Source: Pseudaquabacterium terrae
Lineage (GTDB): Bacteria > Pseudomonadota > Gammaproteobacteria > Burkholderiales > Burkholderiaceae_C
DNA length: 64,000 nucleotides
Assembly: GCF_013266755.1 (NCBI RefSeq)
Contig: NZ_JABRWJ010000010.1
Coordinates: 1-64,000, forward strand
Reading direction: 5' to 3'
Position numbers and translations under genes: made by a program. Of this stretch, positions 5,892 to 50,933 are shown piece after piece (the first letter of the stretch is position 1; each line of letters begins with the position of its first letter). The notes beneath the pieces are model-generated. The model was not told where the DNA came from and did not search any database. It saw nothing but the letters and a program-made list of their open reading frames with translations.

Positions 5892-8129
5892 ATGAGCACC
5901 CTGGCCTGGGACGACCCGACGCAGCTCGCGCGCTTCACCCGCTGGTCCGGCGCCGACGCCGCGCGACGCGCCGACTCGACGCTGCTGATCGACGGGATGG
6001 TCTGCGCCGCGTGCTCGGTGCTGATCGAGGACGCGCTGAAGCGGCTGCCCGGCGTCGAGTCGGCCGACGTCAACCCGGCGACGCGGCGCGCGCAGCTGCG
6101 CTGGGATCCGGCGCGCACGCGCGCGTCCGCGCTGGTCGCGGCGATCGAAGGCGCCGGCGACTACCGCGCGCTGCCGGCCCATGCGCTCGACGCCGAGACC
6201 GCGCGCCGGCGCGAATGGCGCGCGATGCTGTGGCGGCTCTTCGTCGCGGGTTTCTGCATGATGCAGGTGATGATGTACGCGACGCCCGCGTACGTCGCCG
6301 GCCCCGAGGGCATCAGCCCCGACATCGCGCGGCTGCTGCAGTGGGCAAGCTGGCTGCTCAGCATTCCGGTGCTGCTGTTCTCGGCCGCGCCGTTCCTGCG
6401 CGGTGCCATCAATCAATTGACGCGGCGCCGGATCGGCATGGACGTGCCGGTGGCGCTGGGCATCGTCGTCACCTTCGCCGCCAGCACCGCGGCGGCTTTC
6501 GATCCCGGCGGCGTGCTCGGCAGCGAGGTGTACTTCGACTCGCTGACGATGTTCGTCTTCTTCCTGCTCGCCGGCCGTGCGCTCGAGCTGCGCGCACGCC
6601 ATGCCAGCGTCGGCCAGCTCGAGGACCTGATGGCGCGGCTGCCCGAGACGGTCGAGCGCATAGCGCCCGATGGCCGCGGCGAGATGATCGCGTTGACCGC
6701 GCTGGTGCACGGCGACACCGTTCGCGTGCGCCCCGGCCAGGCCTTCCCGGGTGACGGGCCGCTGGTCGACGGCAGCACGCTGGTCGACGAGGCGCTGTTG
6801 ACCGGCGAATCGACGCCGCTGCGCCGCAACGCCGGCGACGGGCTGCTGGCCGGCAGCTTCAATGTCAGCGCGCCGGTGCTGCAGCGGCTGCAGACGCTCG
6901 GCGAGGACACGCGTTATGCCCGCATCGTCGCGCTGATGGCGCGCGCCGCGGCCGACCGCCCGCCGCTGGCGCGCGCGGCCGACCGCATCGCGCTGCCGTT
7001 CCTGTGGGGCGTGCTGCTGCTGGCCTGCGGCGGTGCGCTGGCGTGGTGGTGGATCGATCCGGCGCGCAGCGTGTGGGTGGCAGTCTCTGTGCTGATCGTC
7101 ACCTGCCCGTGTGCGCTGTCGCTGGCCACGCCATCGGCGCTGCTGACGGCCGCCGGAACGCTCGCGCGCCGCGGTGTGCTGGTGCAACGCCTGGCCGCGC
7201 TGGAAGCGCTGGCCCGCGCCGACCTCATCGTGTTCGACAAGACGGGCACGCTGACCGAGGACCGCATCGCGCTGAAGCAGGTCCTGCCGGCGCCTGGCTG
7301 GCGCGCCGACACCGCGCTGCAGGCCGCGCTGACACTGGCCAACGGATCGCTGCATCCGGTCTCGCGCGCGATCGTCGATGCGGCAAACCGCGACGGCATC
7401 GAGCCGTCGCCGCTTTCCGACCAGCACGAGACTGCAGGGCAGGGCGTGCAGGGCCGGGATGCCCGCGGCCGCTGCTGGCGTCTCGGTGCGCAGGCCTTCG
7501 CCGGCACCGGCGCATCGGCCGACGACGATGACGATGACGACCACGGTGCCGCGTGGCTGTCGGTCGACGGCGAAGCCGTCGCACGGCTGCAATTCGAAGA
7601 GCGCCTGCGCCCCGATGCGCGAGCCGCGCTCGAGCGCCTGCACGCCGATGGCGTGCGCACGATGCTGCTGAGCGGCGATCGGCCGGCCGCGGCGCAGCGC
7701 GTCGCGTCGGCACTCGGCGTACGCGAGGTACATGCCGGTGCATCGCCGGAAGACAAGCTGCGCATCGTCGCCGCAGCGCAAGGCCAGGGCCATCGGGTCG
7801 CGATGGTCGGCGACGGCATCAACGACGGCCCGGTGCTGGCGCGCGCCGACGTCTCGCTGGCGATGGGCCAGGGCGCGCCGCTGGCGCGCGCGCAGGCCGA
7901 CTTCACGCTGCTGCGCGGCAGCCTGGTCGACCTGGTCGCGACGCGCGCGCTCGCGCAGCGCACGCTGCGCGTGCTGCGCCAGAACCTCGGCTGGGCCGCG
8001 GCCTACAACGCGGTGTGCGTGCCGCTGGCGCTCGCCGGCTGGCTGCCGCCCTGGGCCGCGGGTCTCGGCATGGCCTGCAGCTCGCTCTCCGTCGTGCTCA
8101 ATGCGCAGCGGCTGCGGCGCATCGGCTGA
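5892..8129 (+). CDS. ccoI: CcoI, copper-exporting P1B ATPase for cbb3 assembly
   Basis: A 745-residue P-type ATPase. An N-terminal heavy-metal domain carries GMVCAAC (Cys38, Cys41). The membrane CPC motif is TCPCALSLATP, the phosphorylation site is DKTGTLTED, and the hinge is MVGDGINDGPVLARADV. It pumps Cu(I) across the inner membrane for the CuB centre of cbb3 oxidase. An acidic run of seven consecutive Asp residues (about 7519-7545) sits in the nucleotide-binding domain and is unusual. The gene precedes ccoS and ccoNOQP on the same strand, which distinguishes CcoI from general CopA pumps. Confidence 0.93.
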   Translation: MSTLAWDDPTQLARFTRWSGADAARRADSTLLIDGMVCAACSVLIEDALKRLPGVESADVNPATRRAQLRWDPARTRASALVAAIEGAGDYRALPAHALDAETARRREWRAMLWRLFVAGFCMMQVMMYATPAYVAGPEGISPDIARLLQWASWLLSIPVLLFSAAPFLRGAINQLTRRRIGMDVPVALGIVVTFAASTAAAFDPGGVLGSEVYFDSLTMFVFFLLAGRALELRARHASVGQLEDLMARLPETVERIAPDGRGEMIALTALVHGDTVRVRPGQAFPGDGPLVDGSTLVDEALLTGESTPLRRNAGDGLLAGSFNVSAPVLQRLQTLGEDTRYARIVALMARAAADRPPLARAADRIALPFLWGVLLLACGGALAWWWIDPARSVWVAVSVLIVTCPCALSLATPSALLTAAGTLARRGVLVQRLAALEALARADLIVFDKTGTLTEDRIALKQVLPAPGWRADTALQAALTLANGSLHPVSRAIVDAANRDGIEPSPLSDQHETAGQGVQGRDARGRCWRLGAQAFAGTGASADDDDDDDHGAAWLSVDGEAVARLQFEERLRPDARAALERLHADGVRTMLLSGDRPAAAQRVASALGVREVHAGASPEDKLRIVAAAQGQGHRVAMVGDGINDGPVLARADVSLAMGQGAPLARAQADFTLLRGSLVDLVATRALAQRTLRVLRQNLGWAAAYNAVCVPLALAGWLPPWAAGLGMACSSLSVVLNAQRLRRIG

Positions 8130-48151: not shown

Positions 48152-48167
48152 ACACTACATATAGTGT
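48152..48167. promoter_or_regulatory. NrdR box 1 ACACTACATATAGTGT
   Basis: Near-perfect match to the NrdR-box palindrome (ACACWATATATWGTGT). It is paired with box 2, 31 bp downstream start to start, i.e. about three helical turns. Confidence 0.9.
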
Positions 48168-48182
48168 CCGTCACTCGTTCGG

Positions 48183-48198
48183 ACACTACATCTAGCGC
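48183..48198. promoter_or_regulatory. NrdR box 2 ACACTACATCTAGCGC
   Basis: More degenerate second NrdR box, left arm identical to box 1. It ends 17 bp before the nrdD start. The pair indicates repression by NrdR when dNTP/ATP levels are adequate. Confidence 0.8.
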
Positions 48199-48215: not shown

Positions 48216-49976
48216 ATGAACCCCACTGACCTCCCGACCCGCGTCATCAAGGGCGACGGCACACCGCAGCAGCACCGCGCGGTCGACGTCGAGGCGTCGA
48301 TGAACGAGTACCTGCAGCAGCGGGACTGGCGCGTCAACGCCAACGCGAACCAGGGCTACTCGCTCGGCGGCCTGATCCTCAACGTGTCCGGCAAGGTCAC
48401 CGCGAACTACTGGCTCGACCACGTCTACCCGCCCGAAATCGGCCAGGCCCACCGCGATGCCGACTTCCACATCCACGACCTCGACATGCTGAGCGGCTAC
48501 TGCGCCGGCTGGTCCTTGCGCACGCTGCTGCACGAAGGCCTGAACGGCGTGCCGGGCAAGGTGGAAGCGGGGCCGCCGAAGCACTTGTCGAGCGCCGTCG
48601 GGCAGATCGTCAACTTCCTCGGCACGCTGCAGAACGAGTGGGCCGGTGCGCAGGCCTTCTCGTCCTTCGACACCTACCTCGCGCCGTTCGTGCGCAAGGA
48701 TGCGCTCGACTACCGCCAGGTGCGCCAGTGCATCCAGGAGCTGGTCTACAACCTCAACGTGCCCTCGCGCTGGGGCACGCAGACGCCGTTCACCAACCTG
48801 ACTTTCGACTGGGTGTGCCCCGAAGACCTGCGCGAGCAGGTGCCGGTGATCGGCGGCGTCGAGATGCCGTTCAGCTATGGCGAGCTGCAGGCCGAGATGG
48901 ACCTGATCAACCGCGCCTACATCGACGTGATGACGGCCGGCGATGCGAAGGGCCGGGTGTTCACGTTCCCGATCCCGACCTACAACATCACGAAGGACTT
49001 CGACTGGCACGGGGCCAACGCCGACGCGCTGTTCGAGATGACCGCGCGCTACGGGCTGCCGTACTTCCAGAACTTCGTCAATTCCGAGCTGCAGCCGAAC
49101 ATGGTGCGCTCGATGTGCTGCCGGCTGCAGCTGGACGTGCGCGAGCTCCTGAAGCGCGGCAACGGCCTGTTCGGCTCGGCGGAGCAGACCGGCTCGCTCG
49201 GCGTCGTCACGGTCAACTGCGCGCGGCTGGGCCACCTGCACGCCGGCGACGAGCCTGCGCTGCTGCAGCGGCTGGACCGGCTGCTCGAGCTCGGCAAGCA
49301 GAGCCTCGAGATCAAGCGCAAGGTGATCCAGCGCCACATGGACGCGGGGCTGTTCCCGTACACCAGGCGCTACCTCGGCACGCTGCGCAACCACTTCTCG
49401 ACGCTGGGCGTCAACGGCCTCAACGAGATGGTGCGCAACTTCACGCGCGACGAGCACGACATCACGAGCGAATTCGGCCATGCCTTCGCCGTTCGCCTGC
49501 TCGACCGCATCCGCCAGCGCATGCGCGATTTCCAGGAAGAGACCGGCCACCTGTACAACCTGGAGGCCACGCCGGCCGAGGGTACGACCTACCGTTTCGC
49601 GAAGGAGGACCGGCGGCGCTTCGCCGGCATCCTGCAGGCCGGCACGCCCGAGCAGCCGTACTACACCAACTCGAGCCAGCTGCCGGTCGGCTTCACCGAC
49701 GACCCGTTCGAGGCGCTCGAGCGCCAGGACGAGCTGCAGCGCAAGTACACCGGCGGCACGGTGCTGCACCTGTACATGAGCGAGCCGCTGAGCAGCGCCG
49801 ACGCCTGCCGCCGCCTCGTGCAGCGTGCGCTGTCGCGGTTCCGGCTGCCGTACATCACCGTCACGCCGACCTTCTCGATCTGCCCGACCCACGGCTACCT
49901 GAGCGGCAAGCACGAGTTCTGTCCCCGATGCGACGAGGAACGCCTCGCGCGCAAGCAACAACGCGCGGCGGCCTGA
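48216..49976 (+). CDS. nrdD: Anaerobic ribonucleotide reductase large part, lacking its glycyl radical tail
   Basis: A 586-residue class III RNR body: DADFHIHDLDMLSGYCAGWSL, VRSMCCRLQLDVREL and a C-terminal metal site (CPTHGY then CPRC, C-x2-H plus C-x2-C). No ATP-cone precedes it. The chain stops soon after the zinc site, just where RVxGY should follow; that motif is in the next gene. It reduces ribonucleotides without oxygen once the radical is formed by NrdG. Two NrdR boxes lie upstream. Confidence 0.92.
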   Translation: MNPTDLPTRVIKGDGTPQQHRAVDVEASMNEYLQQRDWRVNANANQGYSLGGLILNVSGKVTANYWLDHVYPPEIGQAHRDADFHIHDLDMLSGYCAGWSLRTLLHEGLNGVPGKVEAGPPKHLSSAVGQIVNFLGTLQNEWAGAQAFSSFDTYLAPFVRKDALDYRQVRQCIQELVYNLNVPSRWGTQTPFTNLTFDWVCPEDLREQVPVIGGVEMPFSYGELQAEMDLINRAYIDVMTAGDAKGRVFTFPIPTYNITKDFDWHGANADALFEMTARYGLPYFQNFVNSELQPNMVRSMCCRLQLDVRELLKRGNGLFGSAEQTGSLGVVTVNCARLGHLHAGDEPALLQRLDRLLELGKQSLEIKRKVIQRHMDAGLFPYTRRYLGTLRNHFSTLGVNGLNEMVRNFTRDEHDITSEFGHAFAVRLLDRIRQRMRDFQEETGHLYNLEATPAEGTTYRFAKEDRRRFAGILQAGTPEQPYYTNSSQLPVGFTDDPFEALERQDELQRKYTGGTVLHLYMSEPLSSADACRRLVQRALSRFRLPYITVTPTFSICPTHGYLSGKHEFCPRCDEERLARKQQRAAA

Positions 49977-50008
49977 CCCCTTCCACTTCAACCGGAGCTT
50001 TCGACCCC

Positions 50009-50218
50009 ATGAACACCACGCTCGACACGCCGAACACCGTCACGACCACCGCGTCCATCGCGCTCGACGACGACGAACGCCAGCGCTGCGAGGTCTGGAC
50101 GCGCGTGATGGGCTATCACCGGCCCGTCTCGTCCTTCAACACCGGCAAGAAGGGCGAGTTCAACGAACGGCGCTGCTTCGAGGAGCGGCGCTGCGATGGC
50201 GAGTCGGCAGCCGCCTGA
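50009..50218 (+). CDS. Separate glycyl radical domain of class III RNR
   Basis: A 69-residue protein: CEVWTRVMGYHRPVSSFNTG with Gly35 in RVMGY, the glycyl radical site of NrdD, then KKGEFNERRCFEERRC. This is the C-terminal end missing from the large protein. It is not a sequencing frameshift of the usual kind. The large part ends with its own stop, 32 bp with a ribosome-site-like ggag intervene, and the small gene has its own ATG plus a 20-residue non-conserved N terminus. It should associate with NrdD and be activated by NrdG, whose gene overlaps its end. Confidence 0.9.
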   Translation: MNTTLDTPNTVTTTASIALDDDERQRCEVWTRVMGYHRPVSSFNTGKKGEFNERRCFEERRCDGESAAA

Positions 50219-50933
50219 GCCGCGGCCCGCGCAGCTGAAGGTCGGCGGGCTGACGCCGTTCACGAGCATCGACTATCCAGGCAAGCTGTCGGCGGTGGTC
50301 TTTGTCCAGGGTTGCCCGTGGCGCTGCGTGTATTGCCATAACCCGCATCTGCAGCGGCGCGAAGGGGGTGACGAGGGCCGGTCATGGCCCGACGTCCTCG
50401 GGCTGCTGAAACGCCGCGTCGGACTGGTCGACGCCGTCGTCTTCAGCGGCGGCGAGCCGACCATCGATCCGCAGCTCGGCACGGCGATGGCCGATGTGCG
50501 GGCACTGGGCTTCAGCGTTGGCCTGCACACCGCGGGCATCTATCCGCGGCGACTGGCGGAGGTGCTGGATCGGGTCGACTGGATCGGCTTCGACGTGAAG
50601 GCGCCTTTGTCCGAGGCGGCACTGCATGACGGCATCGCCAGCGTCGCGGGCAGCTCGAAGGCCGTGGCGGAGAGTCTGTCGATGGTGCTGCGCAGCGGCG
50701 TCGAGCTGGAGTGCCGGACGACGGCGCATCCGGGCGTGCTCTCGGAAGCTGATCTGCTGGTGCTCGCGCAGCAGCTGGCAGCGCTCGGCGTGCGTCGTTA
50801 TGCGCTTCAGATCGCGCGGGCGGTTCCCGGCAGCCCGCATCGGCCCGAGCCGACAACCGCTGCATACCCGTCGACGGACACCCTCTCAGGGCTCCAGCGC
50901 GCGTTTGCGCACTTCAGCGTGCGGCGCAGCTGA
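50196..50933 (+). CDS. nrdG: Anaerobic RNR-activating protein NrdG-like radical SAM enzyme
   Basis: A 245-residue radical SAM protein. The cluster motif is CPWRCVYCHNP (C-x3-C-x2-C), and VVFSGGEPTIDP follows for SAM binding. It abstracts hydrogen from the glycine of the RNR radical domain. It resembles the longer NrdG proteins rather than the 154-residue E. coli form. It overlaps the radical-domain gene by 23 bp, so the two are coupled. Confidence 0.9.
   Translation: MASRQPPEPRPAQLKVGGLTPFTSIDYPGKLSAVVFVQGCPWRCVYCHNPHLQRREGGDEGRSWPDVLGLLKRRVGLVDAVVFSGGEPTIDPQLGTAMADVRALGFSVGLHTAGIYPRRLAEVLDRVDWIGFDVKAPLSEAALHDGIASVAGSSKAVAESLSMVLRSGVELECRTTAHPGVLSEADLLVLAQQLAALGVRRYALQIARAVPGSPHRPEPTTAAYPSTDTLSGLQRAFAHFSVRRS

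Follow-up and report, generated by a model that had tools for sequence, protein, structure and literature searches.

A class III ribonucleotide reductase with its glycyl radical site on a separate small chain that probably acts in trans

The 64,000-nucleotide stretch of Pseudaquabacterium terrae DNA analysed here (contig NZ_JABRWJ010000010.1; the whole stretch is called the window below) contains a class III ribonucleotide reductase (RNR) locus in which the barrel of NrdD and its predicted glycyl radical site are encoded by two different genes. A reading made from the letters of the DNA, the sequence-only reading, had placed the radical site on a distinct protein of 69 amino acids (aa) and had the large subunit end past its zinc site, and both statements are borne out by the open reading frames (ORFs), by the radical motif and by two abutting matches to the Pfam family NRDD (PF13597), positions 2-531 of the 562-position profile falling on the large chain and 531-561 on the small one. 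The large ORF ends in FSICPTHGYLSGKHEFCPRCDEERLARKQQRAAA and a stop codon, directly past the zinc site and a charged tail, and no radical glycine motif occurs on its 586-aa product. RVMGY, with the putative radical residue Gly35 (codon 50111-50113), lies on the 69-aa chain, whose gene starts 32 nucleotides (nt) past the nrdD stop in a different reading frame and, as had also been noticed, overlaps nrdG (start 50196) by 23 nt. The small gene does have its own start codon, an ATG at 50009, but the 'leader peptide' attributed to it finds no support: among 30 small genes this N-terminal lead-in is poorly conserved (ratio of nonsynonymous to synonymous variation, pN/pS, 1.05), and nothing marks it as a signal or leader. 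The core, at a pN/pS of 0.26, is under purifying selection. The features of the locus are as follows.

48216 to 49976, forward strand: nrdD large chain, 586 aa, with RNR barrel, active-site and finger-loop cysteines and zinc site
49881 to 49931, forward strand: zinc-site-like motif CPTHGYLSGKHEFCPRC at the end of the large chain (sequence and alignment A2)
49932 to 49973, forward strand: charged C-terminal tail DEERLARKQQRAAA (sequence of the large chain)
50009 to 50218, forward strand: glycyl radical chain gene, 69 aa (PF13597 531-561, E 4.4e-8)
50196 to 50933, forward strand: nrdG, activase of NrdG2 type, radical SAM, CPWRCVYC (TIGR02495, 191.7 bits against a cut-off of 131.15 bits)
49994 to 49997, forward strand: possible ribosome-binding site (GGAG) of the small gene, judged from sequence
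48152 to 48167, forward strand: NrdR-box-like palindrome 1, ACACTACATATAGTGT (pattern search, 0 mismatches)
48183 to 48198, forward strand: NrdR-box-like site 2, 31 nt downstream of site 1 (pattern search, 2 mismatches)

Apart from the missing loop, the large chain has the parts expected of an NrdD. The barrel shared by RNRs and glycyl radical enzymes is present in its NRDD form, the match to NF006126/PRK08270 covers profile positions 94-657 of 684, and the chain carries Cys96 (YCAGW), the finger-loop pair Cys301/302 (MCCR) and the zinc-site residues C556/H559/C569/C572. The roles of active-site, finger-loop and zinc-site residues are well established for NrdD. In alignment A2 the columns equivalent to all of these cysteines are invariant, including zinc-site columns C533, C546 and C549, and the histidine column, H536, is nearly so. 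Tails like DEERLARKQQRAAA follow the zinc site in other split chains; 20 fused viral chains run straight on into the radical loop. The window's NrdD probably lacks an ATP-cone, for which no match was found in a chain whose alignment begins at position 94 of the 684-position profile. The open frames of its family relatives are mostly longer (about 680 aa or more), with 593 aa in L027 and 598 aa in L031. The cysteine pair stands in the sequence SMCCR, and MCCR is given in section 13 of PMC4493059 as the mark of the NrdDh4 type of RNRdb2.

The small chain matches the last 30-odd positions of the NCBIfam NrdD models, below their whole-protein cut-offs. In Pfam scans it matches NRDD and not the Gly_radical model, as do the chains of L100, L112, L040 and the ANMV-1 virus, and all ten small chains scanned match phrog_4132, which is listed as a PHROG of unknown function. 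Elsewhere in the genome (8.04 Mb, 56 contigs) there are no NRDD matches besides nrdD and the small gene. A glycyl radical motif and an adjacent radical-SAM NrdG, both features of a class III RNR, are present, and the enzyme is predicted to reduce ribonucleoside triphosphates by means of a glycyl radical. The NrdR-box pattern was written from a consensus after this sequence had been seen, so that its chance expectation of 0.04 is no independent test.

Distribution and origin of the split

The two-chain arrangement recurs in many bacteria. Within a sample of 200 genomes of the bacterial family, 32 match the large chain, the window's own included; 30 loci were read, namely the window's own (L003) and 29 others, leaving out a distant NrdD with 25% identity (G126) and a set of fragments (G003). 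The small gene lies apart from the large ORF in all 29 of the others, one of which (L011) also carries an in-frame TAG in the large ORF. At the level of the order, 128 of 399 genomes match and, among the matches listed, about 104 look split (the window's included), a locus being counted as such if the large-chain match ends near profile position 528-540 or a stop precedes the loop. The phylum sample has an NRDD match in 67 of 397 genomes, 17 of them split by our reading (16 with two separate matches, plus G377) and most others of one-chain types. Named genomes scanned with 20 aligned small chains gave at least 582 stretches, at least 578 of them relatives; the best 80 comprise 71 split loci, 9 radical-domain genes without a nearby large chain and no fused gene, a ranking that favours split-type loops, so that 71 of 80 does not estimate how common fusion is. 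Finally, in 129 split operons (a few of them duplicates) the small core stands in all three frames relative to the large stop, in 59, 36 and 34 cases.

Since the split is present in 29 of 29 relatives and in 71 of the 80 named loci, and since all three frame relations occur, it is neither a sequencing error nor a product of frameshifting. The sequence-only reading had suggested looking for the same split at other nrdD loci, and an outcome that it named as fatal, a resequenced locus in which both genes are joined in one frame, is very unlikely. Put as a peculiarity of the P. terrae genome, the split is described too narrowly; in our tree it is the norm for a large NrdD clade.

For that tree, loci were labelled as split (130), fused (54) or without a radical domain found (7), the window and some genomes being counted twice, and thinned to 37 split and 42 fused rows; it comes from a quick search, with many open forks and long-branch warnings. 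One clade of 42 rows (support 99) unites 36 split with 6 fused rows, the latter being G515, a lineage of three rows from the window's order and one plasmid each from Actinomyces and Acidithiobacillus. The labels must change between split and fused at least six times, five of these changes being forced by starred branches; such counts do not distinguish gain from loss, and the direction is not provable from the tree. The simplest reading suggested by the tree is a single old split followed by later re-fusions. In one viral contig (L311) a large gene is followed about 1.4 kb downstream by a radical loop of the fused type, apparently a second, separate split independent of the main clade.

Two loci have further peculiarities. 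On plasmid pAZI09 of Azospira sp. I09 (L040, 1-6007), class I alpha, split nrdD, the small radical gene, nrdG and class I beta follow one another in one run. The large chain of Thiocystis minor has an in-frame insert of 310 aa (L260, 3289-4218, reverse strand) with a LAGLIDADG domain and a partial match to a long model of B12-dependent RNR; it is probably an intein in NrdD.

Stand-alone radical domains in cells and viruses

Radical domains also occur in extra copies. When 300 genomes of the order were compared with the small-chain alignment, 88 matched, seven of them weakly and to other NrdD types. Among the 81 strong matches, five genomes have two or three copies, three are fused and one (G784) lacks a large chain in its bin; scoring was limited to 20 first-look candidates per genome, and copies may thus have been missed. 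Of the 11 genomes behind a further set of 12 loci, ten have at least two radical domains together with a large chain, with T. minor reaching five radical domains; ten of these loci had been picked for orphan or second copies, and the sample is biased accordingly. Some copies lie in prophage-like surroundings: in L255 (1979-2989) and L257 (3135-4281) the glycyl radical domain stands in a lysis cassette, between an endolysin and an Rz-like spanin, and L263, a prophage-like region of a cellular genome, contains an endolysin gene and an ORF that clusters with phage integrase. The copies in L230 and L239 and the second one in L236 have neighbours that, judged by eye, resemble normal chromosomal genes. 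The two radical-domain genes of L236 (1691-1903, reverse strand; 5971-6177, forward strand) are about 4 kb apart, one in the nrd operon and the other before an ORF resembling clpB by eye. Plasmid pALVIN01 of Allochromatium vinosum (L037, 3992-4201) carries a radical-domain gene, annotated as nrdD, that has neither a large chain nor NrdG within 4 kb of it. In L258 (1517-3924, reverse strand) and L215 (1-2580) a radical-domain gene without a nearby large chain lies beside NrdG or an NrdG fragment and a radical SAM protein, the latter B12-binding according to Pfam in L258 and by eye in L215.

A search of IMG/VR with the window's small chain returned 76 contigs. Searched over their whole length (50 and then 26 contigs), 74 contain only the NRDD end, one (G592) also has a large chain and one gave no match; viral contigs may be fragments, so that absence of the large chain from a contig is no proof of its absence from the virus, and none of the 76 qualified as a virus record of 90% completeness or more. 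NrdG2, sought in 50 of the 76, matched weakly in G592 and in none of the 49 radical-domain-only contigs. The neighbouring genes were compared with PHROGs in 9 of the 75 contigs without a large chain, and eight of the nine match PHROGs of named function (terminase, portal, minor head, DNA polymerase, tail and others); the ninth, L154, gave no match for its three proteins. A further ten neighbour proteins comprise six matching PHROGs of named function, one matching a PHROG of unknown function and three without a match. The radical-domain gene follows the portal gene in L112, lies between portal and minor head in L157, precedes minor head in L162 and is near replication genes in L106 and L119. 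In L112 and L157 the N-terminal part of the chain is rich in Cys. Whole class III RNRs occur in viruses as well, since an IMG/VR scan with the large chain gave 83 stretches (80 kept) in which the full-length cores were labelled fused in 44 cases and split in 14.

MGY is present in all 74 viral orphan domains (59 distinct cores) and the lead-in R[QT]xxE in 73, much as in the cellular split chains (126 and 124 of 127), whereas fused viral domains have them in 1 and 0 of 53; viral domains labelled split have them in 15 and 3 of 19. These motifs assign the viral orphans to the cellular split type, and orphans of this type would fit hosts with a split NrdD. No match at 1e-3 was obtained with the window's small chain (tblastn) among 50,697 phage records, and the chains of L120 (viral) and L263, used in looser searches, returned ANMV-1, records that are annotated as NrdD or that we read as such, and weak, chance-like matches. 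ANMV-1 aside, our evidence for stand-alone viral genes comes solely from IMG/VR contigs and prophage-like regions.

A proposed mechanism and its alternatives

Given a radical site on a separate, conserved gene beside nrdD and nrdG, it follows, as the sequence-only reading held, that if the enzyme works, the radical forms on the small chain and acts, within a complex, on the active-site cysteine of the large one. We propose that the large chain supplies the barrel, zinc site and thiyl-radical cysteine, while the 69-aa chain would supply the glycyl radical loop and the C-terminal tail. Gly35 would receive its radical from NrdG; the small chain, as modelled, would dock in the mouth of the barrel, where the C-terminal loop of a one-chain NrdD lies, and pass the radical to the finger-loop cysteine. 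Because the chain that oxygen can cleave would be small and separate, it might be replaced without remaking the large chain, an idea that the sequence-only reading had raised and to which the extra genome copies and radical-only viral contigs lend indirect support; these stand-alone copies, in some genomes and in viral contigs, probably do the same job in trans. Taken together, a class III RNR of two chains, with a radical subunit that works in trans and with spare copies probably doing the same, seems to us highly probable; the two-chain architecture is very likely and the mechanism in trans likely, and the spare-part role and viral supply are hypotheses with indirect support. As a more specific proposal, which we advance tentatively and which could easily prove wrong, some cells keep spares, and phages and prophages carry the radical cartridge alone, keeping or restarting the host's anaerobic RNR during infection without bringing an enzyme or activase. 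The radical-only viral contigs and extra genome copies fit such a viral spare part, by analogy with pyruvate formate-lyase (PFL).

Several points weigh against this account. An AlphaFold model of a read-through relative, together with the profiles, puts the small chain at the place of the radical loop in one-chain NrdD; the input was two genes joined through the stop codon, and 20 of its 36 alignment rows were naturally fused, so that the docking is in part a product of the input. Modelling was poor over the part of the finger loop that holds the cysteine pair (blocks 271-300, predicted local distance difference test scores of 59, 51 and 36), and a contact between glycine and cysteine thus gains no support from the model. 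Two-chain activity, formation of the complex and of the radical, and rescue are predictions. A stable split is, moreover, explicable without any replaceable part, and 76 of the 81 strong-match genomes show one radical-domain gene.

This last observation is also what neutral gene fission would lead one to expect, in which the enzyme has become obligately two-chained and exchange of the radical chain brings no advantage. Most split rows fall in one old clade, where the split could have been fixed by drift, and four groups inside it have apparently re-fused. We regard neutral fission as a real possibility, albeit a somewhat doubtful one in view of the extra copies in 5 of the 81 evenly sampled genomes, and in 10 of the 11 chosen with bias, and of the 74 viral contigs with a radical domain only. 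A second alternative concerns the viral domains, which might do something else: compete with the host small chain, tie up NrdG or travel as effectless cargo. Their positions are those of ordinary phage cargo (L112, L157, L162, L255, L257, L106 and L119), and the lack of an NrdG2 match in all 49 radical-domain-only contigs searched is in keeping with such a role. We nevertheless think it unlikely, as the Gly-aromatic loop is intact in 74 of 74, an intactness not obviously needed by a decoy, and the lead-in is retained at the frequency of cellular split chains and unlike that of fused viral ones.

It is very improbable that programmed frameshifting or stop read-through yields one joined chain in vivo. 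The ORFs share a frame in 36 of the 129 split operons, but the other 93 are divided between the two remaining frames, an ATG lies upstream of every small core, and the gap from stop to ATG ranges from -13 to 357 nt (median 37 nt). The two genes lie about 9.5 kb from each other in G451 and on different contigs in G701; a case like the latter, G787, was set aside because its small gene is at a contig edge, and the ribosome-binding-like sites found in 127 of the 129 operons, which come from a loose pattern with no control, were not used as evidence. Sequencing error or a decaying pseudogene, of which there is no sign in the window, is practically refuted by the recurrence of the split in independent genomes and by the purifying selection on the core.

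Comparison with known systems

To our knowledge, the radical is located on the catalytic chain in every class III RNR characterised so far. A natural form with two chains would make docking of the loop, access of NrdG and the exchange of oxygen-cleaved loops directly testable, and the small-chain family, with its single-copy genomes, multi-copy genomes and viral versions, offers a concrete candidate for a spare part outside PFL; if the proposal is correct, this would be the first such system for a glycyl radical enzyme beyond that one. For annotation, an nrdD without its small gene would be expected to be inactive.

Our literature search, mostly of open-access text, brought no description of a two-chain NrdD to our notice, and one may exist. 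The split is not described in the available portions of the literature on RNR families and phage RNRs (PMC9669993, PMC9531940, PMC4493059, PMC3019208, PMC3653736), and PMC3653736, in the part available, treats split phage nrdD as a matter of gene interruption or fragmentation. For Cupriavidus metallidurans, the genome paper, in the portion accessible, lists NrdDG as Rmet_5137 and Rmet_5139, omitting the number between. Several small genes in PLSDB records are already named nrdD, in the style of the NCBI pipeline, with the split uncommented. A 1999 paper on nrdDG of Alcaligenes eutrophus (C. necator) pHG1 reportedly described an NrdD of 76.2 kDa and perhaps also a role for Gly650. By our computation the pHG1 large chain alone has a mass of 76.19 kDa, and residue 650 (L033, 4721-4723) is the glycine of CPTHGYL in the zinc site. 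If Gly650 was indeed taken as the radical site, that assignment would need review.

Among known systems, small stand-alone glycyl radical proteins are likewise represented by GrcA/YfiD of E. coli and the phage-borne Y06I of T4, which rescue oxygen-cleaved PFL and are, according to the accessible part of PMC8683613, the sole validated spare parts, others being possible. The window's chain differs from GrcA/YfiD in being homologous to the end of NrdD (Pfam NRDD) and not to the PFL glycine-radical domain, and its partner normally has no loop of its own, whereas PFL has one, which is cleaved. NrdJa/NrdJb of Pseudomonas aeruginosa also form a two-chain RNR, as stated in the available text of PMC4520616 and PMC9669993, but that is a class II, cobalamin enzyme. 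The ANMV-1 virus encodes a stand-alone NrdD C-terminus (AJP62049.1) annotated as anaerobic ribonucleoside triphosphate reductase and counted as an oxygen-sensitive RNR in the accessible part of the ANMV-1 paper (PMC4372165); this chain differs in its length of 144 aa, its Cys-rich N-terminal part and its loop of the fused-chain type. With the one-chain NrdDh type (Thermotoga maritima 4coi/4u3e; NrdDh4 of RNRdb2) the window's enzyme shares the barrel, the finger-loop cysteine pair, the zinc site, the radical loop and NrdG, and it departs from that type in three ways: the loop is on its own polypeptide, the large chain bears a charged tail and the small chain has a lead-in of ERQ type. As the radical glycine is not on the barrel polypeptide, where characterised one-chain NrdD has it, we file the P. 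terrae enzyme as a two-chain variant.
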